From Levilactobacillus lanxiensis (GTDB lineage Bacteria; Bacillota; Bacilli; Lactobacillales; Lactobacillaceae), in assembly GCF_016861655.1 (NCBI RefSeq), contig NZ_BOLN01000004.1, forward strand, positions 124,001 to 188,000: a stretch of DNA of 64,000 nt. Direction: 5' to 3'. Made by a program: the position numbers and the translations under genes. Numbering within the stretch: position 1 is the stretch's first letter; the number at the start of each line of letters is the position of its first letter. This document shows positions 7,015-49,531 of this stretch, piece after piece. The notes beneath the pieces were generated by a model. That model saw only the letters and a program-made list of their open reading frames with translations, was not told the DNA's origin and did no database searches.

Positions 7015-7285
7015 GCCGTAGGGCTGGTGAAAATGAGCTGACTAGGTCAGTGTGAGTGACCAGAGGCAGATCAAGGAGACCAGCTGTGTCGGTGGTCTTG
7101 GCCGGAGTTTTATCCCGGCCTAGAGCACGGGACGGCCTTGGAAACTCGCGATTCTCAGCGAGGTTTCAAGCCGAGCTGGAAGACCGCCCCTCAGGCTGGA
7201 AGCGTTCCCCACAGCAGGGCACCTTGAATCTGCCGCCGGGAACGGTACTGACAGCGTCACGGCCCATTTTCACCGGCCCAGAGGC
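7015..7285 (+). repeat. Dispersed structured repeat, copy A (upstream of dnaX)
   Basis: A full copy of the intergenic repeat family. The closing stem pairs 7021-7035 with 7265-7279: 15 continuous pairs, one of them T-G. It is flanked by GCC (7015-7017) and GGC (7283-7285) across a GTA/AGA internal loop. Core 1 (CAGCTGTGTCGGTGG) is at 7081 and core 2 (CCCCACAGCAGGG) at 7207. An internal hairpin GGCCGG/CCGGCC replaces the GGCTGAG/CTCAGCC of other copies. It ends 53 nt before the dnaX start. Not recognised as a known RNA family. Confidence 0.8.
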
Positions 7286-7338
7286 AAAACCAACGACCAT
7301 TTAACCAGATAACTATTTTCAAGAAAGGAACAGATTGC

Positions 7339-9075
7339 ATGGCTTATCAAGCACTTTACCGGGTCTGGCGGCCCCAGCGATTCGAGGATATGATTGGGCA
7401 AGAAGTCATTACCCGCACCTTGAAAAACGCCATTACGACCAACCAAATCAGTCACGCGTACCTCTTTGCTGGTCCGCGGGGAACCGGGAAGACCTCGGCG
7501 GCTAAAATCTTTGCGAAGGCCATCAACTGTCACCATCAAACGGACGGCGAACCCTGCAATGAATGTGAGACCTGCAAGGCCATCACTGAGGGGACGCTCA
7601 ACGATGTGATTGAAATCGATGCGGCTTCAAACAACGGGGTCGAAGAAATTCGGGATATCCGGGATAAGGTGAAGTACGCGCCGACCGTAGCTGATTACAA
7701 AGTCTACATTATTGATGAAGTTCATATGTTATCGACGGGGGCGTTCAACGCACTGTTAAAGACCTTGGAAGAGCCACCGGCTAACGTGATTTTCATTTTA
7801 GCCACCACGGAACCCCACAAAATTCCGGCCACGATTATTTCGCGGACCCAACGATTTGATTTCAAACGAATTGCGGCCAATGATAGTTATGCGCGCATGA
7901 CTTATATCTTGGACCAAAAGGGTGTCACTTACGATGAACAAGCCGTTAAGGTGATTGCCAAGGCGGCCGAAGGTGGTATGCGGGATGCCCTGAGCATTCT
8001 CGACCAGGCGCTGTCCTTTGGGGATAATGAAATCACCCTGGATAACGCGCTGTTGGTGACGGGGAGTGTGACCCACGAACTGTTAGCGACCTACGTGCAA
8101 CAGGTCCTAGCCGGCGATACCAAGGCGGCCTTAGCTACGCTCCAATCCGTTTTGGAAGCGGGCAAGGATGCCGAGCGGTTCACCGAGGACGTCATCAGCT
8201 ATGCCCGCGACCTGTTGCTCTATCAACAAGCACCTCAGCTAGTTGAAGAGGCCGAGATGGGCAGCGTGAGCGACGATTTCCAAGCCTTAGCCAAGCAAAC
8301 GCCGGCGCAGACCATGTACGCCATGATCAACGAGTTAAACGCCATTCAACAACAGATGCGGTTTACGACCCATCCCGACGTTTACCTAGAAATTTTGACC
8401 ATCAAACTGGCCGAAATCGGCCGGCAGGTGGGGGCGGCCCAACCGGCAGCACCCACAGCGGCAGCATCCGCTGCGCCACAGGCAGCCGCTAGTTCAACTG
8501 AGCTGACATCCCTGCAACACGAGGTCGACCAGCTACGTAACACGGTCAAGCAGTTGGAACAAGCTCCGGTTGCGGCAAAACCCGCAGCGGCCAAGCCACG
8601 AACGACGAAGGCGGCCCCGGTTAAAGAGGTCAACCTCGCGAAGATCTATCCCGTTCTGGGGTCGGCCACGCGGGAGAAGTTGAACCAACTTCAAGAAGTT
8701 TGGCCCGACCTGCTGGATACGTTATCCATTACCCAACGAGCCGTGATGAAGGTGTCTCAACCGGTAGCGGCAGCGGATTCCGGGGTCATTGTGGCCTTTG
8801 ATTATTCCTTTCTGTACCAGCGGGCGACGACCGATCACGAGTTGACCGACGCCCTAGAAAATGGGTTGGATCGCATGATTGGGACGGCCTTGCCGGTTGT
8901 CTTCGTGCCGAAGGATGAGTGGCCAACGATTCGAAAGAATTATTTGACAGACCATCGTGAGGAGTTGCAGAATAACGCTGAGTCACCGGAACCAACTAAG
9001 CCAGCACCTAATCCCGTTGTCACCAAGGCGGAAGAGCTGTTTGGTAAAGATGTTGTTGATGTTAAAAATGATTAA
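7339..9075 (+). CDS. dnaX: DNA polymerase III subunits gamma/tau
   Basis: 578-residue AAA+ clamp-loader subunit. Walker A GPRGTGKT at 45-52; zinc cysteines 64, 73, 76 and 79; Walker B IIDEVH with Asp126-Glu127; sensor/arginine-finger region SRTQRF at 168-173 (T in place of the usual C). An alanine/proline-rich linker near 370-430 is followed by a tau-type C-terminal domain that would contact the polymerase and DnaB. AAGAAAGGAACAG precedes the ATG. It heads dnaX-ebfC-recR-yaaL. I see no convincing frameshift site for a separate gamma form. Confidence 0.97.
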   Translation: MAYQALYRVWRPQRFEDMIGQEVITRTLKNAITTNQISHAYLFAGPRGTGKTSAAKIFAKAINCHHQTDGEPCNECETCKAITEGTLNDVIEIDAASNNGVEEIRDIRDKVKYAPTVADYKVYIIDEVHMLSTGAFNALLKTLEEPPANVIFILATTEPHKIPATIISRTQRFDFKRIAANDSYARMTYILDQKGVTYDEQAVKVIAKAAEGGMRDALSILDQALSFGDNEITLDNALLVTGSVTHELLATYVQQVLAGDTKAALATLQSVLEAGKDAERFTEDVISYARDLLLYQQAPQLVEEAEMGSVSDDFQALAKQTPAQTMYAMINELNAIQQQMRFTTHPDVYLEILTIKLAEIGRQVGAAQPAAPTAAASAAPQAAASSTELTSLQHEVDQLRNTVKQLEQAPVAAKPAAAKPRTTKAAPVKEVNLAKIYPVLGSATREKLNQLQEVWPDLLDTLSITQRAVMKVSQPVAAADSGVIVAFDYSFLYQRATTDHELTDALENGLDRMIGTALPVVFVPKDEWPTIRKNYLTDHREELQNNAESPEPTKPAPNPVVTKAEELFGKDVVDVKND

Positions 9076-9094
9076 AATCTTGAAAGGATGATTA

Positions 9095-9415
9095 ATGATG
9101 CGGAACATGGGAAATATGGGGAACATGATGAAACAAATGCGCCAAATGCAAAAGAAGATGGAAGAGGACCAAAACAACTTGAACGCCCAAAGCTTTACCG
9201 GCGTTTCACCAGATAGCATGGTTCAAGCCACCTTTACCGGTGAACGGAAGATGACCGACCTGACCATCAAGCCAGAAGCCATCGATCCCGATGACCCTGA
9301 TATGTTGGCCGACTTAGTCCTGGCCGCCGTTAACGACGCCCTGGGCCAAGTTGATGCAGCAACGAAACAATCTCTGGGTAAATACACGCAAGGCATGAAC
9401 ATTCCCGGGATGTAA
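9095..9415 (+). CDS. YbaB/EbfC-family nucleoid-associated protein
   Basis: A 106-residue small DNA-binding protein (Bacillus YaaK). The methionine- and glutamine-rich N-terminal helix ([16 protein letters not shown]) forms the dimer tweezers, and a glycine-rich C-terminus ends MNIPGM. It is always found between dnaX and recR in Firmicutes. AAAGGATG serves the ATG at 9095. Confidence 0.95.
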
Positions 9416-9436
9416 TTTAGAAAGGACGTTGTGACC

Positions 9437-10036
9437 ATGCAGTATCCAGAACCGATTGCCCAACTGATCGACAGCTACATGAAGCTGCCCGGTATTGGGC
9501 AAAAGTCAGCGACGCGGCTGGCCTTCTTCACGATTGATATGCAAGAAGATGACGTCACGGCGTTTTCCAAGGCGTTAATTTCAGCCAAAAAAAACCTGCA
9601 CTTCTGTTCCATCTGTGGGAACATTACCGAGAGTGATCCGTGTGTCATCTGTACCGACAAGACGCGGGATCAATCGCACGTCTTAGTGGTTGAACAGGCC
9701 AAGGACATCATGGTGATGGAAAAGATGAAGGAATATCATGGCCTGTATCACGTTTTGCAAGGGGTCATGTCGCCAATCGAAGGCAAGGGGCCGGAAGACC
9801 TGAACATTGCCAGCCTCATCAATCGGTTGCAGCAGAATCCATCCATTAAAGAAGTTATCATCGCGACCAACGCCACGCCAGAGGGTGAAGCCACGGCCAT
9901 GTACCTGTCTCGCTTGATCAAGCCAGCGGGCATCAAGGTGACGCGGTTAGCCCACGGCCTGTCCGTCGGGAGTGATATCGAATACGCGGATGAAATGACG
10001 CTGTTCAAGGCGGTTGAAGGCCGAACGGAAATGTAG
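9437..10036 (+). CDS. recR: Recombination mediator RecR
   Basis: 199 residues from ATG 9437 (MQYPEP, as in Bacillus RecR; an in-frame GTG at 9431 is too close to the ribosome site). Helix-hairpin-helix [13 protein letters not shown], zinc finger with Cys57, 60, 69 and 72, and a Toprim domain starting VLVVEQAKD. With RecO and RecF it loads RecA on SSB-coated gaps. Confidence 0.96.
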
Positions 10037-10050
10037 AGGAGGGTTGCCAC

Positions 10051-10302
10051 ATGTTTGGACGAAAGAAACGGCAACTCCCACGGTTAAAGGCCGCGTACGA
10101 TGAACAACTCCTGTTGAGCATCGACGACGCCAAGGACCGCTGGGACCACGCCAAGCAAACGGAAGAGGCCATTGCGGACGCCGACAATCAAATGACGGCC
10201 AACACCGCACTGGCCCGGCAGACGTACCTCTTCTTGTACCGCGAAGCCCGTCGCCGCCACGTCAGAGGAAAGCATATCTCTGCCGCAGTGTTCCGCGATT
10301 AG
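10051..10302 (+). CDS. yaaL: YaaL-family protein (DUF2508)
   Basis: An 83-residue charged, helical protein of unknown function, recognised from its position after recR and from the family pattern (basic N-terminus MFGRKKRQL, later YLFLYREARRRHV). AGGAGG at 10037-10042 precedes the ATG. It is cotranscribed with recR; a terminator follows. Confidence 0.85.
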   Translation: MFGRKKRQLPRLKAAYDEQLLLSIDDAKDRWDHAKQTEEAIADADNQMTANTALARQTYLFLYREARRRHVRGKHISAAVFRD

Positions 10303-10321
10303 TTTAATAAGTAGTGAGGAG

Positions 10322-10354
10322 AAGACGAAGGCGTTGTGGCTTTCGTCTTTTTTT
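10322..10354 (+). terminator. Terminator after yaaL
   Basis: AAGACGAA-GC / GC-TTCGTCTT stem with a run of T. From here to 10521 I see no gene; the stretch is AT-rich. Confidence 0.88.
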
Positions 10355-10521
10355 ACGCGCTCGTGTTGACGGAGCGTGTAGAATTGAAGGGAGTGAAGTT
10401 GAAAAAATTTAAGTAACGTTAGGATAGTTGGTTGAATTGGTTTTGCGTTCGCTAGTTACGGTGCCTATAGTATAGAAAAATTATTATGTCAGTCAGACAA
10501 GCATAGTGCGTGAACACGAAT

Positions 10522-10777
10522 GACGGAGTTGGTGAAAAGGTCCACGCAATGTCAGTGACCAGAGGCGGGCCAAACTGACCAGCTGTGTCGGTGGTCTTGG
10601 CTGAGTGAACTTCTCAGTCTAGAGCACGGGACGACCTTGGAAACTCGCGACTCGCAGCGAGGTTTCAAGGCGAGGCGGAAGACCGCTTCTCAGGCTGGAG
10701 CCGTTCCCCACAGCAGGGCGGTTTGAGCCCGCCGGCGGGAACGACCAGCGAGAAACCATTTTCACCAACGCCAAGTC
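10522..10777 (+). repeat. Dispersed structured repeat, copy B (upstream of tmk)
   Basis: The closing stem GTTGGTGAAAA (10528-10538) pairs with TTTTCACCAAC (10759-10769), and GG/CC continues inside past a bulged A. Core 1 is at 10580 and core 2 at 10706. Internal hairpins: GGCTGAG with CTCAGTC, and CCTTGGAAACTCGC with GCGAGGTTTCAAGG. The copy lies upstream of the apparent tmk promoter, so it need not be part of the tmk leader. Confidence 0.8.
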
Positions 10778-10819
10778 GTGAACTTTTGGTAAGAAACAGG
10801 CGAAAGCTAGCGATGCAAA

Positions 10820-10848
10820 TAGACATCAATTCTGAATTCAAGTACAAT
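10820..10848 (+). promoter_or_regulatory. tmk promoter
   Basis: TAGACA (10820-10825), an exact 17-bp spacer and TACAAT (10843-10848), about 30 bp before the tmk start. It lies downstream of repeat copy B. Confidence 0.7.
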
Positions 10849-10877
10849 ATAACTATCAAACAAAAATGGGGTCGAGT

Positions 10878-11522
10878 ATGTTGTCAGGAACGTTTATTAG
10901 TTTTGAAGGACCCGACGGCGCCGGGAAGACTAGCGCGCTGCAGGCCATTACCGCACAAATTGCGCCTGTGTTGGGTGACCGACTCACGATTACGCGAGAA
11001 CCCGGGGGCAACCCGATTTCTGAAAGTATTCGGGCCATCATTTTAGACCGCGCCAACACGGCGATGGATTACCGCACGGAAGCCTTATTGTACGCAGCGG
11101 CTCGGCGGCAACACTTAGCGGAGACCATTTTACCCGCGCTAGCCGATGATAAATTGGTGCTGTGTGACCGTTACGTGGACAGCTCCGTTGCCTATCAAGG
11201 CGCTGGCCGTGAAATCGGGGAAGCCGCCGTTGCCCAAATGAATGAATTTGCCACGGACGGGCTGTTGCCCGAATTGACCGTGTATTTCGATGTCCCGGCT
11301 GAAGTGGGGTTACACCGAATTCAAGCGCACCGGGACCCCAAGAAGGTCGACCGGCTAGACGTTGAGCAGGCGGCCTTTCACGACCGGGTCCGGGCTGCTT
11401 ATTTGCGCTTACAAGCTGCGCACCCGGAACGAATCAAACTGATCGATGCCACGCAGGCCCCTGAAGTTGTGGTGGAACAGGCGTTGGCACTCATCAAGCA
11501 CACGGCCCAAGCTTACTTTTAG
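10878..11522 (+). CDS. tmk: Thymidylate kinase
   Basis: Phosphorylates dTMP to dTDP. P-loop GPDGAGKT at residues 11-18, the DRYVDSSVAYQGAGR dTMP-binding/lid region near the middle, and a start MLSGTFISFE. About 214 residues from ATG 10878; an in-frame ATG at 10866 has no ribosome site, and the GGGG upstream of 10878 is weak. It heads tmk-darA-holB-yabA-rsmI, the standard Firmicute order. Confidence 0.96.
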   Translation: MLSGTFISFEGPDGAGKTSALQAITAQIAPVLGDRLTITREPGGNPISESIRAIILDRANTAMDYRTEALLYAAARRQHLAETILPALADDKLVLCDRYVDSSVAYQGAGREIGEAAVAQMNEFATDGLLPELTVYFDVPAEVGLHRIQAHRDPKKVDRLDVEQAAFHDRVRAAYLRLQAAHPERIKLIDATQAPEVVVEQALALIKHTAQAYF

Positions 11523-11549
11523 CACCGGCATTGAGGGAGGAAACCAGTT

Positions 11550-11879
11550 ATGAAATTATTAATCGCCATTGTCCAAGATAAGGATGCAAACCGTCTCAGT
11601 AATGAATTTATCGATCACGATATTCGCGCGACCCGGTTATCCACGACCGGTGGTTTCTTAAAGTCTGGGAACACGACGTTTATGATTGGGTTGGAAGACG
11701 AGCGCGTCGATGAGGTGCTGGATATGATCAAAGAGGCCAGTCACACGCGTCAACAGTTCATGACGCCACCCGTTAACCTGGATGCCCAACTCGACAGTAC
11801 TTCCGCCTACCCGGTCGAAGTGCAAGTCGGCGGGGCCACGGTATTCGTGATGCCCGTTGAGCAGTTCCACCGTTTTTAG
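11550..11879 (+). CDS. darA: PII-like cyclic di-AMP receptor DarA (PstA/YaaQ)
   Basis: 109 residues of the DUF970 family, a trimeric PII-like protein that binds c-di-AMP. It starts MKLLIAIVQDKDA; the family-typical TTGGFLKSGNTTF loop is present and the end is VFVMPVEQFHRF. AGGGAGGAAA precedes it. The downstream target is unknown in any species. KimA, another c-di-AMP-controlled protein in Bacillus, is encoded at 25.8 kb in this window. Confidence 0.95.
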   Translation: MKLLIAIVQDKDANRLSNEFIDHDIRATRLSTTGGFLKSGNTTFMIGLEDERVDEVLDMIKEASHTRQQFMTPPVNLDAQLDSTSAYPVEVQVGGATVFVMPVEQFHRF

Positions 11880-11888
11880 GAGGAAAAT

Positions 11889-12902
11889 ATGACCGAAGAA
11901 TCCGTGGTCGCCACGGCCCAACGGCTTCAGCCGCAACTCGTGACCCACTTTATGCAACTGATTCAAACCAATCATCTGGCGCACGCCTACCTCTTTAATG
12001 GTGCGGACGGGACCGGCCGACAAGAGGTTGCGCGGACCGTGGCCATGCGGTTATTTTGCCAAAACGTCACGGCTGAGGGCATGCCCTGTGGGACGTGTGC
12101 CGAGTGCCGGCGCATCATGGCGGGGGACCATCCTGATGTAGTCAGCGTGGTTCCGGACGGCCAGCGTATCAAGGTCGACCAAGTCCGTTACTTAAAGGCG
12201 GAGTTCACCAAGAGCGCGGTGGAGGGCAATCAAAAGATCTTCATCGTCGACCAGGTCGACCGGATGACGACTGGGGCCGCCAATAGCCTGTTAAAGTTTA
12301 TTGAGGAACCCGTGGGCAACACGGTGGCGTTATTGTTGACGGCCAATAAAAACCTGATTTTACCCACGATTTTGTCGCGGACCCAGGTCGTTGATTTTCT
12401 CCGGGTATCGCCACGAGCCTTGACGGATGCTCTAGCCACGGCCGGCGTCGTTCCGAGTCAACGCTACTTATTGACCACCTTAACTGAAAGCGTCAGTGCC
12501 GCTTTGGAATTGACGGCGGATGACTGGTTAAAGGATGCCCAAGCGGCGGTGGGCCAATGGTTAGCCGCTTGCTGTGCCAATGATGAGCGGGCCTTTGTCC
12601 GCGTGCAAACGGACCTGGTCCCATTGGGCAGTAACCGCGATCGGCAGGGGATCATTTTAGACATGGTCGTGCAGGCCTGGCACGATGCCTTACGCCAACA
12701 GTCGGGGACGGTCGGTCCAGATGACCTGGCCTATCCGCAGGTGGCGCAGGCGAGTCGTGAGGTGGGTCAACGCCTATCCATCGACCAGCTGGTGGCCATC
12801 ATGACGCTGACGCTCGCCACGCGCGGACAGTTGGCCGGGAACATGAATTTTCAAGCAATCTTAGAAGCCTTAACGTTACAGATTCTGGCGCAAATGCGCT
12901 AA
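11889..12902 (+). CDS. holB: DNA polymerase III subunit delta'
   Basis: 337-residue clamp-loader subunit related to DnaX. The Walker A position is GADGTGRQE, degenerate as expected for delta', which does not hydrolyse ATP. Zinc cysteines lie in CGTCAEC; SRTQVVDF matches the SRC/arginine-finger region. AGGAGGAAAAT precedes the ATG, 9 nt after darA. Confidence 0.95.
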   Translation: MTEESVVATAQRLQPQLVTHFMQLIQTNHLAHAYLFNGADGTGRQEVARTVAMRLFCQNVTAEGMPCGTCAECRRIMAGDHPDVVSVVPDGQRIKVDQVRYLKAEFTKSAVEGNQKIFIVDQVDRMTTGAANSLLKFIEEPVGNTVALLLTANKNLILPTILSRTQVVDFLRVSPRALTDALATAGVVPSQRYLLTTLTESVSAALELTADDWLKDAQAAVGQWLAACCANDERAFVRVQTDLVPLGSNRDRQGIILDMVVQAWHDALRQQSGTVGPDDLAYPQVAQASREVGQRLSIDQLVAIMTLTLATRGQLAGNMNFQAILEALTLQILAQMR

Positions 12903-12931
12903 GACTAGTCAGCATTGGAGGGGTGGCAGCT

Positions 12932-13270
12932 TTGGATAAAGAAGAAGTTTATGATCAATTCAAGAGTCTTGAGGGTCAGTTGCAGCAGATGCTCGCCCAA
13001 TTCTCTGACTTACAAACGCAGATGACGCAGGTGTTTGAGCAAAATGCCGAATTGGAAATTGAGAATCAGCACTTGCGGGACTTGGTGCGGGAGCTACAGA
13101 AGACATTGCCCGAGGATCCTGAAACACCCCAAGGGCTCTCCAAGTCGCGACAGATTCTGGAGAAACTTTACGAGGAAGGCTTTCACGTTTGCCGGGAATT
13201 CTACGGAACCCGGCGCAAGCAGGATGAGGAATGTGCCTTTTGCCTGGAAGTTATTTACCGCGATCAGTAG
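12932..13270 (+). CDS. yabA: Replication initiation control protein YabA
   Basis: Negative regulator of DnaA that bridges DnaA and the DnaN clamp. 112 residues from TTG 12932 (MDKEEVYDQ; GGAGG is well spaced), with GTG 12923 as a less likely start. A leucine-zipper-like coiled coil fills residues about 5-60; the C-terminal zinc cluster is in HVCREFYG...CAFC. Confidence 0.94.
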   Translation: MDKEEVYDQFKSLEGQLQQMLAQFSDLQTQMTQVFEQNAELEIENQHLRDLVRELQKTLPEDPETPQGLSKSRQILEKLYEEGFHVCREFYGTRRKQDEECAFCLEVIYRDQ

Positions 13271-18775: not shown

Positions 18776-19026
18776 GGTAGGGAAAATGGGTGCCGCCGTG
18801 AGTGACCAGAGGCAGGCCAAGGTTCCCAGCTGTGTCGGTGGTCTTAGCTGAGTGATTTTTCTCAGCTTAGAGCACGGGACGACCTTGAAAACTCGCGGTT
18901 CTTAGCGAGGTTTCAAGGCGAGGCGGAAGACCGGTTCTCAGGCTGGAGCCGGGCCCCACAGCAGGGGACCTTGAGCCTGACGGCGGGAACGGCTGGGACC
19001 GGTCTTATTTTCCCCCACCCGGAGGC
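18776..19026 (+). repeat. Dispersed structured repeat, copy C (upstream of the SDR gene)
   Basis: The closing stem GGGAAAAT (18780-18787) pairs with ATTTTCCC (19007-19014) and extends through GGT/ACC. Core 1 is at 18827 and core 2 at 18954. The first internal hairpin is AGCTGAG/CTCAGCT, an A-T pair where copy D has G-C (copy B has G-T). Another hairpin is CCGG...CCGG around CTCAGGCTGGA. It ends CCCGGAGGC like copies D and E. Confidence 0.8.
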
Positions 19027-19091: not shown

Positions 19092-19808
19092 ATGGGTAAG
19101 CTAGAGAACAAGGTAGCCGTTGTCACGGGTGGCTCGTCCGGAATCGGACTGGCGACCATTCAAAAGTTTACGGCTGAGGGCGCAACGGCGGTGTCCGCTG
19201 ACGTGACGGCGCCTGCCGACGCTGGGATTGCGTTTATCGAGACGGACGTCACGGACGAGCAGTCCCTGCAAGCGATGGTCGACCAGGTGGTCAGTCAGTA
19301 CGGGCACCTGGATATTTTGGTGGCCAATGCCGGGGTTGCCGAGCAGAAGGCTGGCGTGGCCGATATTGACATGGCCAACTGGAACAAGGTGATCGCGATT
19401 GATTTGACCGGTGTCGTCTTGACCAACAAGGTCGCCGTCGCCCAGATGGTGAAGCAGGGGAGTGGGAGCGTCGTCAACATGAGCTCGATTCTCGGGGTCG
19501 TGGGCGCCGCCAAATCCCAGGCCTATTCCGCAGCCAAGGCTGGTGTGGCCAACTATACCAAATCCCAAGCCGTCACCTATGCGCAACAGGGCATCCGGTT
19601 CAACTCGGTGGCACCGGGCTACGTGGCGACACCGCTCCTGAAGACATTGCCGCCAGAAGTGACCGGACCGATGGTGGGTAAGATGCCAATCGGCCGGCTA
19701 GCCGAACCGGCGGAAATCGCCAACGTCATTGCCTTCATTGCTAGCGATGAGGCGTCATTTGTGACCGGCGCCACGATTAACGTCGATGGCGGATACACCG
19801 CTTTATAA
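19092..19808 (+). CDS. Short-chain dehydrogenase/reductase
   Basis: 238-residue classical SDR. TGGSSGIG cofactor loop near residues 13-20, NAGVAEQ, catalytic Ser in NMSSILG and the YSAAK motif; it ends NVDGGYTAL. The acidic DVT after the second strand favours NAD(H) over NADP(H). The substrate cannot be read from sequence; 3-oxoacyl or acetoin/diacetyl-type reductases are possible. Single gene with AAAGGAG, preceded by repeat C and a cre-like site. Confidence 0.9.
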   Translation: MGKLENKVAVVTGGSSGIGLATIQKFTAEGATAVSADVTAPADAGIAFIETDVTDEQSLQAMVDQVVSQYGHLDILVANAGVAEQKAGVADIDMANWNKVIAIDLTGVVLTNKVAVAQMVKQGSGSVVNMSSILGVVGAAKSQAYSAAKAGVANYTKSQAVTYAQQGIRFNSVAPGYVATPLLKTLPPEVTGPMVGKMPIGRLAEPAEIANVIAFIASDEASFVTGATINVDGGYTAL

Positions 19809-28767: not shown

Positions 28768-28859
28768 GGCGGTTGATTTTGCGCTTGGTCTTCAAGGTCT
28801 TGGGCCAAACGGGCTAAGCAAATGCATCAATCAACGCACAATCGAGAGCCGGAGGAAGC

Positions 28860-29036
28860 CAGGACGGAGACGGCTGTGTCGATTCTGTTAGTCGGCGTTC
28901 TTGGGCCGGTTTACAGAATGGGACAAACTTTGAGCCCTGCACGAACTTAGCAGGGGGCAAAGTTGAGGTGGGAGCCCGGTTCTCAGGCGGGAACCGGCCC
29001 CACAGCAGGCGTAGTCCTGGAAGCCGCAGGCGGCCA
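28860..29036 (+). repeat. Dispersed structured repeat, diverged copy F (kimA-lrgB gap)
   Basis: It shares the cores GGCTGTGTCG (28872) and CCCCACAGCAGG (28998), with GGGACAAACTTTG and GGGAGCCCGGTTCTCAGGC between. The hairpins are preserved with other bases: AACTTTG..CCCTGC / GCAGGG..CAAAGTT, and a perfect CCGGTTC/GAACCGG around the conserved CTCAGGC loop. Flanking sequence from 28768 also folds. Unlike copies A-E, no plus-strand gene follows; lrgB converges on it. Confidence 0.6.
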
Positions 29037-29161: not shown

Positions 29162-29968
29162 TTAGATTAAGCCCATCATAGAAGCAAATGGTGGAACAAC
29201 GATATCAACAACGATAGAGATAACAACAACGGCGATGGATGCCATAGACCCTTGGATAGAACCAAGTTGTAAGGCCTTAGCAGAGCCAACCGTGTGTCCG
29301 GCAGTACCTAAACCAAGTCCGGCACCAATTGGGTCGCTGTTAACATGGAAGAACTTAACGAGCCAGTCACCCAAGGCGTAAATGATAACGGCGTTGAGGA
29401 TGCAGGCCATGGCAGTAACGGCAGTGTTACCACCGATAGCACCGGCAATAGGCATCGCGATGGCGGTCGTGGCAGCTTGTGGCATCATTGAAGCAATACC
29501 AACGTTGTCCAAACCGATAAGCTTTGAGACGTAGTAGATAACGAACAAGGAAATAACTAACCCAACGATCAGGGAAAGCACGATTTCCAACCAGAACTTC
29601 TTAACAACGTCATTCCGACGGTACAGAGGAATAGCGAAGGCGATAGTAGCTGGGTTCAAGAACCAGAAGATAATGTTACCACCTGGTAAGTAGGCTGACT
29701 TGTAGAAAGTAGCCGTGTCCGTTCCGAATGCCTTAGCAAACAGGAACAGAATGAAGATCCCTAAGACCATCCCAACGAACAGAGGTTGGAATAAGAAGAA
29801 ACCTTTACCGATCTTGAATAACCATTGACCGAATAAGTAAACAACTAATGATAGAAAAATACCAAATAATGCGTTACCGGCAGAAGCACCAGCGGCGTTA
29901 GTTCCTAACGCGTCACCGAGCCATTTGCCCCAAACTGCCATATGGGCGGTTGCAGTTAAAGTCATCAT
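29162..29968 (-). CDS. lrgB: LrgB/CidB-family membrane protein
   Basis: 268 residues, about 7-8 membrane helices, with the family pattern MPQAATTAIAMPIAGAIGGN and GLGTAGHTVGSAKALQLG. Works with LrgA; the pair is linked to control of autolysis and, in several bacteria, export or uptake of small acids such as pyruvate. Two adjacent ATGs, with AAAAGGATG before. 44 nt after lrgA. Confidence 0.92.
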   Translation of the reverse strand: MMTLTATAHMAVWGKWLGDALGTNAAGASAGNALFGIFLSLVVYLFGQWLFKIGKGFFLFQPLFVGMVLGIFILFLFAKAFGTDTATFYKSAYLPGGNIIFWFLNPATIAFAIPLYRRNDVVKKFWLEIVLSLIVGLVISLFVIYYVSKLIGLDNVGIASMMPQAATTAIAMPIAGAIGGNTAVTAMACILNAVIIYALGDWLVKFFHVNSDPIGAGLGLGTAGHTVGSAKALQLGSIQGSMASIAVVVISIVVDIVVPPFASMMGLI

Positions 29969-35545: not shown

Positions 35546-35642
35546 GAGCCGCTTAGGTCCTGAGCATTAGGGAGTAAAAGAGCTTCTGCCCGGCAGCGCC
35601 GGGCAGGAGTTCTTTTACTTTCTAAGCGCAGGGACCTGGCTC
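35546..35642 (+). other. Very stable long hairpin upstream of the tandem repeats
   Basis: 35573-35594 pairs with 35598-35619 over 22 positions (two G-T) with a 3-nt loop, centred on TGCCCGGC/GCCGGGCA. An outer stem joins GAGCC-AGGTCCTG (35546-35562) to CAGGGACCT-GGCTC (35629-35642). GCTTAG/CTAAGC offers an alternative outer pairing. No T-run follows. Its right arm is also the beginning of tandem repeat unit 0. Confidence 0.6.
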
Positions 35643-36060
35643 GTGTAGCACGTTTCGGAAGCCGCAAGGACCGGGATTGTTCCGTGGAGAACCGACTTAA
35701 CGAACTAAAACAATCTAAATTGAACGTAAATTCCGGGCCTGGGTCGTTTCCGTTACGGTGTTAAGCGGAACCAGTTGCCCCGCGTAGCACGTTTCGGAGG
35801 CCGCCAGGACCGGGATGGTTCCGTGTAGAACCAGTGAAACGATTTGAAGTAAGCTGAAATGAATGTCCAGTCCTGGATATTTTCTTAGCCGGGTTAAGCG
35901 CAGGAGTCTGCCCCGCGTAGCACGTTTCGGAGGCTGCAAGGAACGGGATTGTTCCGTGTAGAATCAGTGAAATGATTTGAAACAAGCTGAAATGAATGTC
36001 CAGTCTAGAGTCATTGCTTAGTCAGGGTTAAGCGCAGAAACCTGCCTTGCGGAACACGTT
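35623..36060 (+). repeat. Tandem repeat: three units of about 135 bp plus a partial fourth
   Basis: Units begin with TAAGCG at 35623, 35762, 35895 and 36029 (lengths 139, 133, 134, then partial). The shared heart is GTAGCACGTTTCGGA, then a GGAAC...GTTCC-type hairpin. Units 1 and 2 also share GATTTGAARYAAGCTGAAA and ATGTCCAG. It lies between hpf and secA, with no gene on either strand that I can support. Confidence 0.8.
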
Positions 36061-38867: not shown

Positions 38868-38930
38868 TAGCTTCGCTACTGAGGGCGAAACACTAGTGAC
38901 AAACTTGTTTGTGGGTTAAACTAGTAGTTG

Positions 38931-39196
38931 GCCGCAGGGTGTATGAAAATAAAGTTGGCCGCGACAATGTCAGTGACCAGAGGCGGGGCAAAGTACCCAG
39001 CTGTGTCGGTGGCCTTGGCTGAGGTTCTTTCTCAGCCTAGTCCACGGGACGACCTTTGTGACCGTTTCTCAGGCACAAAGTCGAGGTGGAAGCCCGTTTT
39101 TCAGGCTGGAACCGACCCCCATAGCAGGGAACTTTGAACCCCGCCGGCGGGAACGAAATTTCTCGTGGACCGGTTCATTTTCACCAGCCCGGAGGC
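38931..39196 (+). repeat. Dispersed structured repeat, copy D (upstream of prfB)
   Basis: Closing stem TGAAAAT (38944-38950) with ATTTTCA (39177-39183), extended by GGG/CCC, then GCA/GGA internal loop and GCC (38931) with GGC (39194-39196). Core 1 is at 38998; core 2 (CCCCATAGCAGGG) at 39117. The hairpin CTTTGTG/CACAAAG replaces the TTGGAAAC/GTTTCAA of copies A-C. It ends 56 nt before prfB. Confidence 0.8.
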
Positions 39197-39251
39197 GGAA
39201 ACAACGATTTAACCCGAAACAAATAGAATAACTAAAAAGGAGCCAACTAAC

Positions 39252-43787: not shown

Positions 43788-43798
43788 ATTAAGTGCGT

Positions 43799-43834
43799 GG
43801 GTGCCTGGAATTTATTTTCCGGGCACCTTTTTTG
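43799..43834 (+). terminator. phoPR terminator
   Basis: GGTGCCTGGAA pairs with TTCCGGGCACC and is followed by six T. 43835-43989 shows no gene. Confidence 0.92.
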
Positions 43835-43989
43835 TGCAGAACGAGTGGACTGGTGAGTGACGGTGGCTTGGTCGCTGAAGAAGATGGCAGGCATAGGCAG
43901 TGGAGGTGGCGCAACGCGTGGTCGTAGACTAATTGGCTAGTTGTGGGGCATGACCGCTTAATCAAAAAAATTACCCATAACGGGATATA

Positions 43990-44043
43990 TTTACATAACC
44001 TTTACAATACGTCTACACGACATTTACATTCGTTAGGTATACT
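43990..44043 (+). promoter_or_regulatory. Pho box (four direct repeats) and pst promoter
   Basis: TTTACA at 43990, 44001 and 44023 and TCTACA at 44012 lie exactly 11 bp apart, the PhoP dimer array known from Bacillus (TT(A/T/C)ACA with 5-bp gaps). TATACT (44038-44043) follows as -10. Binding covers the -35 region, as expected for activation. Confidence 0.92.
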
Positions 44044-44095
44044 TATTTTTGAAATGGTCGGGCCGCAAAGCCTAGCCAATTAGGAGGTTAACGGT

Positions 44096-44977
44096 ATGTC
44101 TAAAAAGCGCTGGGTGCAGGGCCTGGTCTTGGTTGTTCTGGTTGCGTTAGGGTTTTATGCTTACCAAACGCGTCAGGTCAGCCATGCGGGTGAATCCATC
44201 ACCGCGGTAGGGTCAACGGCCCTCCAACCCTTAGTAGAAGCAGCAGGCGAACAGTATACGGGCGAACACCTGGGGACGTTCATTAACGTTCAGGGTGGAG
44301 GAACCGGTACAGGATTGAGCCAAATTCAAGAGGGCGCAGTCCAGATTGGGAATTCAGACCTCTTCGCTGCAGAACAAAAGGGGATTCGGGCTAAGGAATT
44401 AGTCGACCACCGCGTAGCCGTCGTGGGCATTACCCCTATCGTAAACAAAAAAGTGGGTGTCAAGGATCTGTCGACACATCAGCTGATTCAGGTCTTTACC
44501 GGCCAGGTCACGAACTGGCGGCAGGTCGGTGGCGCTGACCTGCCTATCGTTTTAATCAACCGGGCCCAAGGAAGTGGGACCCGAGCAACCTTTGAACAAT
44601 TTGGCCTGGAGAAGCACCGTTCCAAGACCTCACAGGAACAGGATTCTTCCGGGATGGTCCGGTCCATCGTCGCCACGACGCCCGGTGCCATCAGTTACGT
44701 GGCTTTTTCTTACGTTGATAAAACGGTTCAGGATCTGTCCTTGAATCACGTGGCACCAACTGAGGATAACGTGACAACGAATCGCTGGAAAGTTTGGTCC
44801 TACGAGCACCTGTACACCAAGGGCCAGCCAACCGGTCTGACGAAGGCCTTCATTGCGTACGTTCAATCGCCAGCGGTCCAAAACACTTTGGTCCGCCAAC
44901 TGGGCTATCTTTCACCCAACCAAATGATGGTCGAACGGAATGCAACCGGTCAGATTACGCAGACGGAGGGCAACTAA
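44096..44977 (+). CDS. pstS: Phosphate-binding protein PstS
   Basis: 293 residues. One N-terminal hydrophobic helix, then the phosphate-binding fold: AVGSTALQPLVEAAG, GGGTGTGLSQI, IGNSD and NRAQGSGTRATFEQF. No lipobox cysteine is present, so it is held by an uncleaved or SPase I-type segment rather than as a lipoprotein. AGGAGG precedes the ATG. First gene of the pst operon. Confidence 0.93.
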   Translation: MSKKRWVQGLVLVVLVALGFYAYQTRQVSHAGESITAVGSTALQPLVEAAGEQYTGEHLGTFINVQGGGTGTGLSQIQEGAVQIGNSDLFAAEQKGIRAKELVDHRVAVVGITPIVNKKVGVKDLSTHQLIQVFTGQVTNWRQVGGADLPIVLINRAQGSGTRATFEQFGLEKHRSKTSQEQDSSGMVRSIVATTPGAISYVAFSYVDKTVQDLSLNHVAPTEDNVTTNRWKVWSYEHLYTKGQPTGLTKAFIAYVQSPAVQNTLVRQLGYLSPNQMMVERNATGQITQTEGN

Positions 44978-44978
44978 T

Positions 44979-45908
44979 ATGAAAACAACTGAACAATTAG
45001 AAGCCAAGCTGAAGCGTCGTTCCAAGGCCGCCAAGTTAGAAATTTGGGGGCGCCTGATCAGTCTAACGGCGCTGATGCTGATTGTTGCGGTCGTCGTGGC
45101 CATCATTGGTTTTGTGGCCTCCAAAGGGATTGCAACGTTTACGAGTAACCACGTGAGCCTCTGGGACTTTTTATCCGGCAAGAGCTGGAACCCCGGGGTC
45201 AACGGGGCCAACGGCAAGCCTGAAGTTGGGGCATTACCCATGATTGTCGGGTCCTTCTTAATTACGATTTTATCGGCCATCGTGGCCACGCCATTTGCGA
45301 TTGGCACGGCGGTCTTTATGAATGAAATTTCACCCAATAAAGGGGCCAAGATTCTCCAACCCGTGACGGAACTCCTAGTGGGGATTCCTTCCGTGGTGTA
45401 CGGGTTTATCGGGCTTTCCGTGGTGGTTCCGACCACCCGGGCCATCTTTGGCGGCAGTGGTTTTGGGATTCTTTCCGGAACCTGTGTGCTCTTTGTGATG
45501 ATTCTCCCAACAGTGACGTCGATGAGTGCCGATGCCTTGCGCGCCGTGCCCCGTTACTACCGGGAGGCTTCCTTAGCCTTAGGGGCGACGCAGTGGCAAA
45601 CCATCTACAAGGTCGTCTTGCGCGCAGCGACCCCCGGGTTAATGACCGCGGTCGTCTTCGGGATGGCGCGGGCCTTTGGTGAAGCCTTAGCCGTGCAAAT
45701 GGTGATTGGGAACGCCGCACTGATGCCCAACAGTCTGGTCTCACCGTCGGCCACGTTGACGTCGGTTCTGACGACGGGGATCGGGAACACCGTCATGGGC
45801 TCGCTGCAAAACAATGCGCTGTGGTCCCTGGCACTAGTTCTGTTATTCATGTCACTAGTCTTTAACTTAATTATTCGCTTGATTGGTCGAAAGGGGCGCT
45901 TACAATAA
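44979..45908 (+). CDS. pstC: Phosphate ABC transporter permease PstC
   Basis: 309 residues from ATG 44979 (GGAGGG before it; upstream in-frame reading lies in pstS). Six membrane helices, with the permease coupling loop REASLALGATQWQTI. One base separates it from pstS and one is shared with pstA. Confidence 0.95.
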   Translation: MKTTEQLEAKLKRRSKAAKLEIWGRLISLTALMLIVAVVVAIIGFVASKGIATFTSNHVSLWDFLSGKSWNPGVNGANGKPEVGALPMIVGSFLITILSAIVATPFAIGTAVFMNEISPNKGAKILQPVTELLVGIPSVVYGFIGLSVVVPTTRAIFGGSGFGILSGTCVLFVMILPTVTSMSADALRAVPRYYREASLALGATQWQTIYKVVLRAATPGLMTAVVFGMARAFGEALAVQMVIGNAALMPNSLVSPSATLTSVLTTGIGNTVMGSLQNNALWSLALVLLFMSLVFNLIIRLIGRKGRLQ

Positions 45909-46792
45909 TGAATTCCAAAACGCAAAATAAGATTGCCATTGGCGGTCTCTACGGAATTGCCGGATTGGTCGTTCTAATTTTGTTAGCCCTGCTTGGCTAC
46001 ATCTTGGTCAGTGGGGTGCCGCAGTTAAGCTGGCACTTCCTGACCGCACCGGGTAAGGCGTTCCTGAAGGGCGGGGGCGTTGGGATTCAACTGTATAATT
46101 CCTTTTATCTGTTGATCCTTGCCATGCTGATTTCCTTTCCAATTGCCTTGGGCGCTGCCATTTACCTGTACGAATATGCCAAGGATAATTGGGTCACAAC
46201 CACGATTCGAACGGCGATTGAAATTCTGAGTTCACTGCCTTCCGTAGTCGTTGGGTTGTTCGGTTTCCTGTTCTTCGTGGTCAAGCTGCACCTAGGTTTT
46301 TCCATCTTGTCCGGAGCCTTTGCACTAACCTTCTTCAACTTGCCGCTGCTAACCCGGAGCATTGAAGATTCCTTACGCACCATCAGTGACGTGCAACGAG
46401 AAGGGGGCCTGGCACTCGGGCTGTCTCGGTGGGAGACCGTTACTCGGGTAATTTTACCTGCCGCGGTACCCAGTATCCTGACCGGGGTCATCCTGAGTGC
46501 TGGCCGGGTCTTTGGGGAAGCCGCTGCGTTGATCTACACGGCGGGCCAGAGCGCCCCGGCCTTGGACTTCACCGACTGGAATCCGTTTAACATTTCCAGT
46601 CCACTGAACCCAATGCGGCCAGCAGAAACCTTAGCCGTTCACATTTGGAAAATTAATTCGGAAGGCATCATGCCGGATGCCAAGGCCATTTCATCCGGGT
46701 CATCGGCCGTCTTAGTGATTGCCATTCTGCTGTTCAACTTTGCGGCCCGTTACCTGGGTAAACGTTTGTATAAGCGCCTGACATCGGCGTAG
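45908..46792 (+). CDS. pstA: Phosphate ABC transporter permease PstA
   Basis: 294 residues, six membrane helices, coupling loop REGGLALGLSRWETV. The ATG shares one base with the pstC stop (TAATG). Ribosome site AAAGGGG. Confidence 0.95.
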   Translation: MNSKTQNKIAIGGLYGIAGLVVLILLALLGYILVSGVPQLSWHFLTAPGKAFLKGGGVGIQLYNSFYLLILAMLISFPIALGAAIYLYEYAKDNWVTTTIRTAIEILSSLPSVVVGLFGFLFFVVKLHLGFSILSGAFALTFFNLPLLTRSIEDSLRTISDVQREGGLALGLSRWETVTRVILPAAVPSILTGVILSAGRVFGEAAALIYTAGQSAPALDFTDWNPFNISSPLNPMRPAETLAVHIWKINSEGIMPDAKAISSGSSAVLVIAILLFNFAARYLGKRLYKRLTSA

Positions 46793-46804
46793 AGGAGGAA
46801 AACC

Positions 46805-47629
46805 ATGTTTGTGAATAACGATGTAAAAAATGCGATGGCCATGGAAGAGCGGCACGTGATTAAGCTCAGTGACCCGGACCATCCCGTCATTCTCTCCACG
46901 GAAGACCTCCACGTGTACTATGGCAAGAAGGAAGCCTTATTTGAAGGTGACCTGGAGTTTGCCAGCAATCAAATCACGGCCTTGATTGGGCCTTCCGGTT
47001 CGGGGAAGTCGACCTACTTGCGGTCGTTGAACCGGATGAATGATCGCATCGCCACGGTGACGGGGAAAATCATGTACCGCGGCGTTGATATCAACCAGCC
47101 CAGCATTGACGTCTATGAGATGCGGCGTCGGGTGGGGATGGTCTTCCAACGACCCAACCCGTTTGCCAAGTCAATTTACGATAACATCGCTTTTGCTTTA
47201 CGACTCCGGGGGGTAACCGGTAAACATAAGTTAGATGAAATCGTGGAGACGTCGCTCAAGCAGGCGGCACTCTGGGACCAGGTCAAAGACGACCTGAACA
47301 AGAGTGCGTTGGCGCTTTCCGGTGGTCAGGCGCAGCGGTTGTGTATCGCCCGCGCCATCGCCATCAAGCCAGACATCCTCTTGTTGGATGAGCCAGCTAG
47401 TGCGTTGGATCCGGTGTCGACCGGGCAACTGGAAGACACGTTGTTGTCACTCAAGGAGCATTACACGATTATCATTGTGACCCACAACATGCAACAGGCC
47501 GCGCGGATCAGTGAGTATACGGCATTTTTCAATCAGGGACGGGTGTTGGAGTACGACACCACGAGCCATATCTTTACCAATCCGTCGGTGCAGGTGACCA
47601 GTGATTACGTGTCGGGGAACTTCGGCTAA
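46805..47629 (+). CDS. pstB1: Phosphate ABC transporter ATPase PstB (first copy)
   Basis: 274 residues with a 30-residue N-terminal extension. Walker [10 protein letters not shown] at 62-70, Q-loop VFQRPNPF, signature LSGGQAQRL, Walker [13 protein letters not shown]. It pairs with PstB2; two PstB paralogs in tandem are common in lactobacilli. GAGGAGG ribosome site. Confidence 0.95.
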
Positions 47630-47643
47630 GAGGAGGAGAAATA

Positions 47644-48402
47644 ATGAAAGAAGAAATTTTGACGACGCAGGATCTTCACTTATACTATGGTGACAAGGAA
47701 GCCTTGAAGGGCATCAATTTAAACTTTGATGAAAAGGGCATCACCGCATTGATCGGGCCATCGGGATGTGGCAAGTCCACTTACCTGCGGACCCTCAACC
47801 GGATGAACGATTTGATTCCAAACGTCACGATCACCGGGACCATTAAGTTCAAGGGCGACGACCTGTACGCCCCCAGTGCGGACACGGTGCAGATCCGCAA
47901 GGAAATTGGCATGGTGTTCCAACAACCTAATCCATTCCCATTTTCCATCTACGACAACGTGATCTATGGTCTGCGGATTGCTGGCGAAAAGGACAAGGAA
48001 AAGTTAGACGCCGTCGTTGAAAAATCTTTGCGGCAGGCGGCCGTGTGGGATGAAGTCAAGGACCACCTGCATGAAAGTGCCCTGGCCCTTTCCGGTGGGC
48101 AACAGCAACGGGTCTGCATTGCGCGGGTCCTAGCCGTGTCACCAGAAATCATCTTGCTAGACGAACCGACGAGTGCCCTGGATCCCGTGTCCAGTAGCCA
48201 AATTGAAGCAACCCTCTTGAATTTACGGCACGATTATACGATTATTATTGTGACCCATAACCTCCAGCAGGCGTCCCGAATTGCGGACCGGACCGCGTTC
48301 TTCATGAACGGGGAGCTGATTGAAGTGGATCAAACGAAGAATATTTTTATGAACCCAGCGAACAAGCAGACAGAAGACTACATTAGTGGTCGTTTCGGGT
48401 AA
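47644..48402 (+). CDS. pstB2: Phosphate ABC transporter ATPase PstB (second copy)
   Basis: 252 residues, standard PstB length. Walker [10 protein letters not shown] near 38-46, VFQQPNPF, signature LSGGQQQRV, Walker [11 protein letters not shown]. Differs from PstB1 in the signature (QQQ versus QAQ). Either a heterodimer or alternative homodimers are possible. Confidence 0.95.
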
Positions 48403-48413
48403 GGAGGCAGGAT

Positions 48414-49094
48414 ATGCGCAGATTATTTGATGATGAGTTAGCTGAATTAGATGCTGACTTTACTGAAATGGGGATGCTGGTCAGTGAAACGATTGAGCAG
48501 GCGGTGAGTTCCTTTACCAACCGGGATGCCGTTGCCGCGCAACAAATCATTGACCACGACCATGATATTAACGAACGTGAAATTGCTTTGGAAAAGAAAA
48601 CGTTTGAAATGATTGCCTTGTACCAACCCGTCACTACGGACCTGCGAGAAATCGTGACAATTTTAAAGGCCGTGTCGGAGCTGGAACGGGCCGGGGATCA
48701 CGCCCGGAACATTGCGCACGCCACGATTAAGTTTGGCACGAAGCAAAAGATTCCCGTCTTAGAACAGCTACTGAACCAGATGGGGTTGATGACGACCCAG
48801 ATGGTGAAAGATGTCTTGGCCGCATACGTGGATAAGAACGACCACGAGGCCCGGAAACTAGCCGATGTCGACCGGCAACTTGATCAGCTCAACCACCAGG
48901 TGCGGGCCGATAGCTATGCTCAGATGCGTAGCGACCCGGCGTTTGAAACGGGCGCGTCCATTTACTTGAACGTGGCCCAAGACCTCAGTCGGATTGGGGA
49001 TTACGTGACGAACGTCTGTGAATGGATTGTTTACCTGAAGTCCGGGCAGATTATCGAATTGAACACGGCAAGTCAGGATGGCGAAACGGCGTAA
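48414..49094 (+). CDS. phoU: Phosphate uptake regulator PhoU
   Basis: 226 residues; two three-helix repeats with metal-binding motifs ELERAGDHARNI and RIGDYVTNVCEW. It couples transport through PstB to PhoR and damps the response when phosphate is ample. AAGGAGG precedes the ATG; last gene of the operon. Confidence 0.95.
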   Translation: MRRLFDDELAELDADFTEMGMLVSETIEQAVSSFTNRDAVAAQQIIDHDHDINEREIALEKKTFEMIALYQPVTTDLREIVTILKAVSELERAGDHARNIAHATIKFGTKQKIPVLEQLLNQMGLMTTQMVKDVLAAYVDKNDHEARKLADVDRQLDQLNHQVRADSYAQMRSDPAFETGASIYLNVAQDLSRIGDYVTNVCEWIVYLKSGQIIELNTASQDGETA

Positions 49095-49142
49095 TCCGTT
49101 GCAGCCAGCACGAAAGCTTAATCTAAACTGAAGATTGATGAG

Positions 49143-49180
49143 AACGGCCACTGAAGACTTGCTTTCAGTGGCCGCTTTCG
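49143..49180 (+). terminator. pst operon terminator
   Basis: CGGCCACTGAA pairs with TTCAGTGGCCG, then T's. Between here and 49354 I see no gene. Confidence 0.85.
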
Positions 49181-49354
49181 TTATTCTTGCCCTAGTGAGC
49201 CTGAAAATCAGCAATCAATCGCGAGATTACTGGATTTACTAAGGTCATTTCGGATATGATAGAAGCACTTAACCACGGTCTGTAAATTGCAAAGGTCAGG
49301 GAAGCATTGCCCAAAAGATTAAGCAATTGGTCAGTCCTGGTTAAACCAGTGTTG

Positions 49355-49531
49355 GCCGCAGGAAGCGTGAAAATGGTCTCAGCCGTGGGAATTTCCTTAG
49401 CGGCGGGGTGAGCCGGTTAGGAAATTGATATCTTTGAGACAGCTTGCTGGCTCAAAGTAAGCTCGGAGACCGTCCTTTGGCTCCGGGCGTTCGCCCACCG
49501 CGTTCCGGACCATTTACACGCTCCCGGAGGC
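49355..49531 (+). repeat. Dispersed structured repeat, short diverged copy E (upstream of pspC)
   Basis: Closing stem 49361-49378 with 49508-49525: 16 of 18 positions pair. It is followed by GCA/GGA and GCC (49355) with GGC (49529-49531), the same outer frame as copies A and D. Inside, AATTTCCT/AGGAAATT and CTTTGAG/CTCAAAG hairpins occur, but the CAGCTGTGTCGG and CACAGCAGGG cores are missing. It ends 48 nt before pspC. Confidence 0.65.

Follow-up and report, generated by a model that had tools for sequence, protein, structure and literature searches.

Introduction

The systems closest to the element analysed here are repeats and hairpins already described. REP sequences and BIMEs are extragenic palindromes that number more than 100 in a genome, occur in inverted pairs, form species-specific families and undergo complementary changes that keep the palindromes (PMC2817692). 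For the ERIC, NEMIS-Correia and RUP MITEs, both terminal inverted repeats and a target duplication are tabulated (PMC2229807). A survey of ncRNA in 50 genomes includes candidate mobile or repeat sequences, among them MRSC-65-2, a single long stem often present dozens of times in a genome (PMC11109978); the string "lactobacill" is absent from the main text of that survey. The Lac-1 family of L. johnsonii has 231 positions and is typed 'G' (PMC2267715).

The element occurs in a 64-kb stretch of Levilactobacillus lanxiensis DNA (the window). Its high copy number, extragenic location and inverted pairs are those of REP/BIME, but, unlike the repeats as described in PMC2817692, it is built on a branched core of about 200 nt with arms specific to the locus, its pair members are not specially alike and no Y1 transposase accompanies it consistently. 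With the ERIC, NEMIS-Correia and RUP repeats it shares the form of an imperfect intergenic palindrome of 100-200 bp that can fold in transcripts; in contrast to their entries in PMC2229807, its arms depend on the locus and can be inverted host coding sequence, and its 3' end nearly always faces a gene. Like the survey candidates in PMC11109978 it is structured, covarying, multi-copy and inconsistent in its orientation to genes, although it is not one long stem as MRSC-65-2 is. Hairpins made by template switching (PMC8794818; Monttinen and Loytynoja 2022) likewise have stems built or mended by reverse-complement copying, but as described there they are without a dispersed shared core or gene-edge geometry. 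Locus-specific arms and a fixed orientation to coding sequence are absent from the bacterial repeats compared, and no description of this family was recognised in searches of the openly accessible journal literature. We read the element, with a probability of about 0.55, as a high-copy, probably mobile, non-autonomous repeat of part of the Lactobacillaceae, with selection acting on its folded single strand and with insertions that make a reverse copy of the flank on the gene side.

Copies in the window

A covariance model (R1) was built from 30 copies, including window copies A, B, C and D. The six stretches that the initial annotation had grouped as one family all match R1 on the + strand, with scores of 222.9, 221.8, 211.1, 191.8, 79.6 and 37.3 bits for copies A, B, C, D, F and E, respectively; because copies A-D sit in the model, only F and E are independent matches. 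An R1 search of the 64-kb window at E 0.01 gave no seventh copy, the remaining rows being complement-strand shadows of copies A-D. The two cores said to be shared by copies A-D are exact in all four, with CAGCTGTGTCGGTGG at 7081, 10580, 18827 and 38998, and CCCCAYAGCAGGG at 7207, 10706, 18954 and 39117.

Copy A has a core of the long type, with helices P1-P4 (7050-7245, + strand), and together with its arms (approximately 7001-7303) is positioned between the SRP RNA (6623-6709, Rfam) and dnaX (7339-9075, NCBIfam). Copies B (core 10549-10744, +) and C (core 18796-18992, +) are upstream of the dTMP kinase gene (10866-11522, NCBIfam) and an SDR-like oxidoreductase gene (19092-19808; the SDR models shown are all under their cut-offs), respectively, and copy D (core 38967-39156, +; arms approximately 38914-39214) occupies the 5' flank of prfB (NCBIfam; ATG at about 39252, placed by eye). 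Copy F, a diverged subtype (core 28842-29033, +), lies downstream of an LrgB-like gene on the minus strand (29162-29968) and is antisense to it; the gene scores 262.9 bits with the LrgB model and narrowly misses the cut-off of 264. Copy E (49349-49533, +; arms GTGAAAATGG / CCATTTACAC) had been annotated at 49355-49531 as a diverged member; it does belong to the family, but as a shorter core type without P1, similar to the short core that genome G029 has at its dnaX site. No function is shared by the nameable neighbours in the window (dnaX, dTMP kinase, SDR-like, prfB and LrgB-like; one is unnamed).

The Rfam check called for by the initial annotation is consistent with its proposal of novelty. 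The SRP RNA is the sole gathering-level match to Rfam 15 in the window and none falls on a copy; copy A at E<=5 gives just Esr41 (17.7 bits against a cut-off of 102), copy E at E<=1 gives no match, and 20 loci of relatives give none at gathering level. Tandem repeats in the window are also without a gathering-level Rfam family.

Copy number and distribution

As the initial annotation suggested, copies in the genome are very numerous. At least 150 scoring at least 174 bits are found in the element's own genome, and the motif CCCCAYAGCAGG occurs exactly 221 times genome-wide against 0 for the same pattern read backwards as a control; together with the fold of a 311-nt stretch of copy A (z = -6.4), this motif count excludes chance. 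In the suggested search of Lactobacillaceae genomes, matches came from 33 of the 35 genomes covered in the genus, own genome counted, and from 8 of the 40 genera sampled across the family (the 20 stretches picked for containing matches are unsuitable for estimating element density). Subfamilies are species-specific. On this evidence the genes of a genus used in food fermentation would have some two hundred structured copies, or more, in their untranslated flanks, unmatched at the Rfam gathering level.

Closely spaced copies are in excess: 16 of 146 have their closest copy no more than 3 kb away, where permutation gives 1.6 on average and 8 at most. Members of neighbouring pairs resemble each other no more closely than do random pairs matched for score, and on this ground we reject the idea that they are inverted duplicates of one another.

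Fold and covariation

The core, of approximately 110-200 nt, comprises a long helix or closing arms bearing three hairpins, and the two shared core sequences pair together inside one long helix, P1. The stems covary, as had been proposed. In alignment A1 (31 listed copies minus L006) 30 of 57 pairs covary and 98.4% of cells are paired, with 148 double-change cells against 37 when shuffled; in A2, which was fitted to the model and keeps all 94 rows, four of them shadow or partial matches, the corresponding counts are 1282 and 315. Recent duplication, the alternative raised with the initial annotation, is rejected as the source of this covariation by the median identity of 81% among 81 high-scoring copies and by the double changes between orthologues.

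Substitutions between orthologous copies were analysed in 72 of 122 comparisons with G016/G029 (identity >=80%, coverage >=90%). Conservation is 2.4 times higher in stems than in loops, and double Watson-Crick changes number 69 where simple arithmetic gives about 2. G-U exceeds A-C by 97:46 (p 2.4e-5), and by 30:10 at A-U pairs (p 0.002). Changes between orthologues mostly preserve pairing on the element's own strand, and the single-stranded fold appears to be under selection. Within alignment A3 (150 rows, 12 dropped for this count) the G-U to A-C ratio is 192:48 in antisense copies and 164:38 in sense copies, or 93:33 and 84:24, respectively, when four near-fixed columns are left out. Counting against an own-strand reading, G-U is barely above A-C in single-genome copies at columns where A-U is commonest (57:45 in A3, 5:4 in A1). 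The best explanation, at the probability already given for the reading as a whole, is that the relevant folded form is the element's own (sense) single strand, whether RNA or single-stranded DNA.

Template switching during replication, which lengthens and perfects quasi-palindromes, would generate covariation and inverted copies by mutation, with no selection on RNA; the published mechanism yields both reverse-complement repeats and compensatory changes (PMC8794818). It would accommodate the inverted copies of gene ends described below, the locus at which an entire hairpin stem differs between G000 and G016 (C1a_64884), and the internal deletions between arms seen at orthologous sites. The mechanism alone, however, does not predict a one-strand excess of G-U over A-C, the double changes between orthologues mostly affect one pair at a time (runs of 1, 2 and 3 pairs number 40, 13 and 1), and the shared core at hundreds of sites and the head-to-head geometry are left unexplained, so that we consider it an improbable account. 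The element would, if confirmed, provide a natural test of RNA-level selection against template switching as a source of covariation, with a bearing on all covariation-based RNA discovery.

Orientation towards genes

Genomic context was analysed for 154 of 234 R1 rows, with complement-strand shadows, rows below 35 bits and three cut or partial matches (L237:19895, L238:1 and L235:1280) dropped; six of the 154 have no called gene on one side, leaving 148. Copies in a 5' flank are in the sense orientation, those in a 3' flank antisense. Relative to the gene on the 3' side, 69 of the 148 copies are sense and 79 antisense, and the 3' end is the end closer to coding sequence in 139; 41 antisense copies lie within 40 nt of a stop, a count that is all we take from a match-rate profile confounded by free end gaps. 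Neighbouring copies are arranged head-to-head, their 5' ends facing, in 58 cases, in tandem in 13 and tail-to-tail in 0. Copies in other genera likewise face coding sequence, as judged from 90 of 94 rows (three shadows and one partial match left out).

Sense-strand promoters are not enriched upstream of copies, which rejects the idea of one promoter per element. In convergent regions such a promoter is present in 1 of 33, against 4.4 expected from shuffles, and antisense copies are therefore without an evident sense transcript. With 79 of 148 copies antisense and functionally mixed neighbours, a leader RNA or riboswitch of the usual kind is rejected; the element is not an ordinary cis-regulatory RNA family. 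What holds of the initially annotated candidate RNA family is a dispersed, covarying structure with no gathering-level Rfam match. A plain RNA family is not supported, given the antisense copies, the lack of promoter enrichment, the locus-specific closing stem and the differences in presence and core between orthologous sites.

A family of RNAs beneficial to the host could in principle show such an orientation, if sense RNA at the entrances of coding sequences, from either side, tuned transcription, decay or antisense transcription, and if spread and geometry were products of selection. The sense-strand pairing maintained in orthologues, with its conserved stems and double changes, is in keeping with this, as are the equal orientation in other genera and the 93 of 127 orthologous comparisons in which the element is called present by length. 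Close species nevertheless differ in its presence, the nameable window neighbours lack a common function and sense promoters are not enriched, in convergent regions included; we regard this reading as rather unlikely. Stem conservation itself could reflect host selection and not mobility.

Search for a mobilising enzyme

Neither of the enzyme domains searched for in the 35 genomes, reverse transcriptase and Y1 transposase, tracks the element. The reverse transcriptase domain PF00078, expected if the element derived from a retroelement, retron or group II intron, is found in only 10 genomes, against element matches in 33, and the Y1 transposase PF01797 in 23. All 12 genomes without PF01797, including G029 and G002, carry element matches, both genomes without element matches (G012 and G024) have PF01797, and the element's own genome (G000) has two PF01797 matches. 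Their occurrence being uncorrelated with the element, both enzymes are rejected as mobiliser. One 206-base copy used as a blastn query gave no match in plasmid and phage collections, and 63 IMG/VR stretches containing the 15-mer gave no covariance model match; carriage by phage or plasmid is rejected on these results.

These distributions bear on whether the element is an ordinary REP/ERIC-type MITE moved by a resident transposase. Its intergenic, palindromic character, high copy number, species-specific subfamilies and inverted pairs all recall REP/BIME as described in PMC2817692. A branched core in place of a short palindrome, arms that are mostly locus-specific and the 12 of 35 genomes that have the element but no Y1 transposase match make this very unlikely. 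A non-autonomous repeat of the kind we favour would, if confirmed, show how palindromic repeats can arise and spread with no obvious transposase.

Locus-specific arms and orthologous sites

The closing stem, described in the initial annotation as shared, proved specific to its locus and in places includes host coding sequence. The arm duplex with the own locus is -40.2 against -28.2 kcal/mol (79 copies). Counting against the favoured reading, only 25 of the 79 pair best of all with their own arm. As to terminal inverted repeats of the MITE kind, GGTGAAAAT is exact in the 5' arm of 18 of the 79, while arms overall pair better with their own locus. Arm complementarity extends into coding sequence (permutation p 0.00075 for 14 copies and 0.0003 for 27), but the own coding end is the best partner in only 3 of 14 and 4 of 27, which likewise counts against that reading. 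At galT, 44-46 nt of the gene-side flank, last codons of the gene included, recur in inverted form as the 5' (distal) arm (p 0.0003-0.0013); of the 10 species tested this holds for 4, the ones with a shared insertion; a short gap to the next gene is kept in most of 30 species displayed. Against generality, the ABC locus reaches p of about 0.01 in 2 of 8 element-bearing species, and inverted copying more than 60 nt from the core gives no general signal.

Orthologous sites vary in presence, length or core type, and presence differs even between close species. The locus-specific closing stem, the antisense copies, the lack of promoter enrichment and these differences in presence and core suggest the behaviour of a mobile repeat. 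In the proposed mechanism, a DNA 3' end leaving a gene would copy the element, starting at the element's 3' end and finishing at its 5' end; having folded back on the existing arm, the newly made strand would reverse-copy the gene-side flank for tens of bases, and then rejoin the chromosome. Existing copies may also be overwritten when their cores or individual hairpins undergo conversion, and the copying enzyme could be a host polymerase or a reverse transcriptase. Why the 3' end prefers coding edges does not follow from this mechanism. Only tentatively, as a possibility that we think doubtful, would we propose a new class of bacterial mobile element, in which DNA 3' ends emerging from genes are extended by copying a structured single strand and the product folds back and reverse-copies the gene edge, with no dedicated transposase. 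Were this true, arms could hold a fossil of host coding sequence and head-to-head pairs would come to bracket intergenic regions. At nine near-absent orthologous sites the longer unaligned flank is 5' in seven and 3' in two.

Identity, fold and distribution of the element

The exact core motifs reported in the initial annotation were found at their positions, and the six window stretches (copies A to F) proved to be one related family: all of their cores were matched on the + strand by the covariance model of the element (trained on 30 copies, four of them from the window), with scores from 223 down to 37 bits. The two conserved cores described there pair with each other to form a single helix, P1, and three hairpins lie inside it. 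P1 is missing from the copy at 49349-49533, which belongs to a shorter type; one close relative also carries the shorter type as its orthologue of copy A, the copy adjoining dnaX. In a MAFFT alignment of 30 copies (A1), from which the scored structure was itself derived, pairing holds in 98.4% of the 1710 cells and double changes occur in 30 of 57 pairs; its covariation score of 0.296 compares with 0.140 for shuffled and at most 0.088 for slid alignments. A cross-species, model-fitted alignment, in which three rows are shadow hits and one is a partial hit, gave variation on both sides of 55 of the 57 pairs (1282 cells vs 315 shuffled). Copy A with its arms folds with a z of -6.4.

The strain's own genome (3.03 Mb, 24 contigs) contains at least 150 model matches, the lowest of these at 174.5 bits, and 221 occurrences of CCCCAYAGCAGG; the reversed control gave 0. 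The closest named relative of its DnaX is that of L. enshiensis (89%), which makes Levilactobacillus the probable genus. Matches were obtained in 33 of 35 genus genomes, the own genome included. With stricter filters than in the genus survey, matches came from 25 of the 151 genomes sampled across the family (five from the genus), spread over 8 of 40 genera; the order sample of 148 genomes, also strictly filtered, yielded the own genome and one weak match (29 bits) in another family. Best scores per genome span about 230 to 42 bits, which suggests that the element is divided into species-specific subfamilies. Elsewhere in the window, tandem repeats with a period of about 133-139 lie at 35608-36060. 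They comprise three 133-nt copies (67% and 80% against the reference) plus a 36-nt part present four times, and have no gathering-level Rfam match.

Position relative to genes

None of 148 copies overlaps a gene, as called with our own simple gene caller, by more than half. Relative to the gene on the 3' side, 69 copies are sense and 79 antisense; an ordinary leader RNA identity was rejected on the test of consistent orientation. The 3' end is closer to coding sequence than the 5' end in 139/148 copies, and in 76/81 copies that share their region with no other. Of the 79 antisense copies, 41 have the 3' end no more than 40 nt from the stop codon, and 48 of the 69 sense copies have it no more than 137 nt from the start, the smallest distance for the 5' end being 109 nt. 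Neighbours within one intergenic region (n = 36) are arranged head-to-head in 26 cases, in tandem in 10 and tail-to-tail in none, and members of a pair show no special mutual similarity. The corresponding counts in other species and genera, taken from 55 loci of which some are likely orthologous to each other, were 32, 3 and 0; here the 5' end was within 100 nt of an ORF in 0/87 copies and the 3' end in 50/87.

Closing arms and the galT locus

The closing arms are largely locus-specific: a copy's own 5' arm and 3' flank pair with a mean of -40.2 kcal/mol, against -28.2 for mismatched partners (79 copies), the own partner being the single best match in just 25 of the 79. Arm complementarity extends past the stop codon into the gene's coding sequence (permutation p 0.00075 with 14 antisense copies and 0.0003 with 27), and a copy's own coding end is individually the best partner in 3 and 4 of these, respectively.

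In most of the 30 species displayed, a short gap separates galT from the next gene. In the own genome, its close relatives G016 and G029, and G006, the element lies antisense directly after the galT stop, and beyond it is an inverted copy, 44-46 nt long, of the galT 3' coding end (p 0.0003 to 0.0013 against block-shuffled flanks). In the first three genomes this copy differs from the gene by three or four mismatches and five gaps of one base. In G006 it matches the GACCAG codons of that genome's galT, which seem to have changed in the own genome since copying, and for this reason the arm looks like a fossil of the gene. The galT locus shows the direction of copying, from gene end to arm. Six other species tested here have no inverted copy, and at least two of them carry other element types at the site. 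At a second locus, that of an ABC-transporter-like gene, p was 0.005 and 0.011 in two of eight element-bearing species, and none of three species without the element gave a signal. More than 60 nt out, there was no general inverted-copy signal. In G012 (L281), a genome without model matches, the stop of the ABC gene is directly followed by a short hairpin-like scar. It looks like the two ends of an element joined together and may have arisen by deletion between the arms of a palindrome.

We propose that a DNA 3' end coming out of a gene would first have the element copied onto it, after which fold-back extension would copy the gene edge; replication template switching, as discussed in PMC8794818, may supply the second step. 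We infer that this would account for the arm polarity, for the stem being specific to each locus, and for part of the geometry.

Variation between orthologous sites

The dnaX site has a long core in the own genome and G016 and a short core in G029, with recognisably the same arms, and the locus at C1:106975 has a long core in the own genome and a short one in both relatives. Among 127 orthologous comparisons, 54 had the expected length within 60 nt, 39 were longer and 34 shorter, with 93 sites counted as present by length. At one locus an entire hairpin stem differs between the own genome and G016 while neighbouring hairpins are nearly unchanged. Of 146 copies, 16 have their closest relative no more than 3 kb away, five of these being tandem neighbours (permuted mean 1.6, maximum 8; 2000 permutations). 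These near closest copies and the core and hairpin differences between orthologues indicate that spread is partly local, with cores being overwritten. A short tandem repeat of ACAAATT-type units (L228 about 6828-6870; C1:106.8 kb of the own genome) stands upstream of a copy 96% similar to copy A, the unit being different in G016.

The strand probably under selection

The main alternative to copying with fold-back is selection for an RNA that acts on transcription as it enters a gene. Terminator-like hairpins were commoner on the 5' side, but a longer stretch was scanned there; promoter-like sites on that side showed no enrichment. A single strand can accommodate G-U pairs, whose complement is A-C. 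On the element's own strand, the G-U:A-C counts in the model-fitted alignment were 164:38 in sense and 192:48 in antisense copies, or 84:24 and 93:33 without four near-fixed wobble columns; the unfitted A1 gave 28:5. Between orthologues the count was 97:46 (p 2.4e-5), to which antisense copies contributed 63:27 and sense copies 34:19. As C/T differences were commoner than A/G in loops, the counts were split by pair type, and at A-U pairs, where a C/T bias would act oppositely, the ratio was still 30:10 (p 0.002). Columns with A-U commonest among copies of one genome gave only 57:45 (model-fitted) and 5:4 (A1), which counts against an own-strand bias. We take the element's own single strand, as RNA or DNA, to be the form under selection, whichever gene it adjoins; conversion from other copies could contribute.

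Relation to known repeats

In behaviour the element is similar to REP/BIME sequences, to ERIC, RUP and NEMIS repeats, and to the mobile/repeat class defined in a recent survey of ncRNAs, as described in PMC2817692, PMC2229807 and PMC11109978, respectively. We have filed it among dispersed structured repeats, as a variant, and think it rather unlikely to be a new class of mobile element. In a search of 35 genus genomes, neither reverse transcriptase matches (10 genomes) nor Y1 transposase matches (23 genomes) tracked the element, so that no mobilising enzyme was identified, and the Y1-transposase test speaks against REP identity. One genus genome, G032, has four Y1 transposase matches at an identical 134.3 bits and three at 105.6 bits, and these equal scores suggest that it holds active IS200-like elements.
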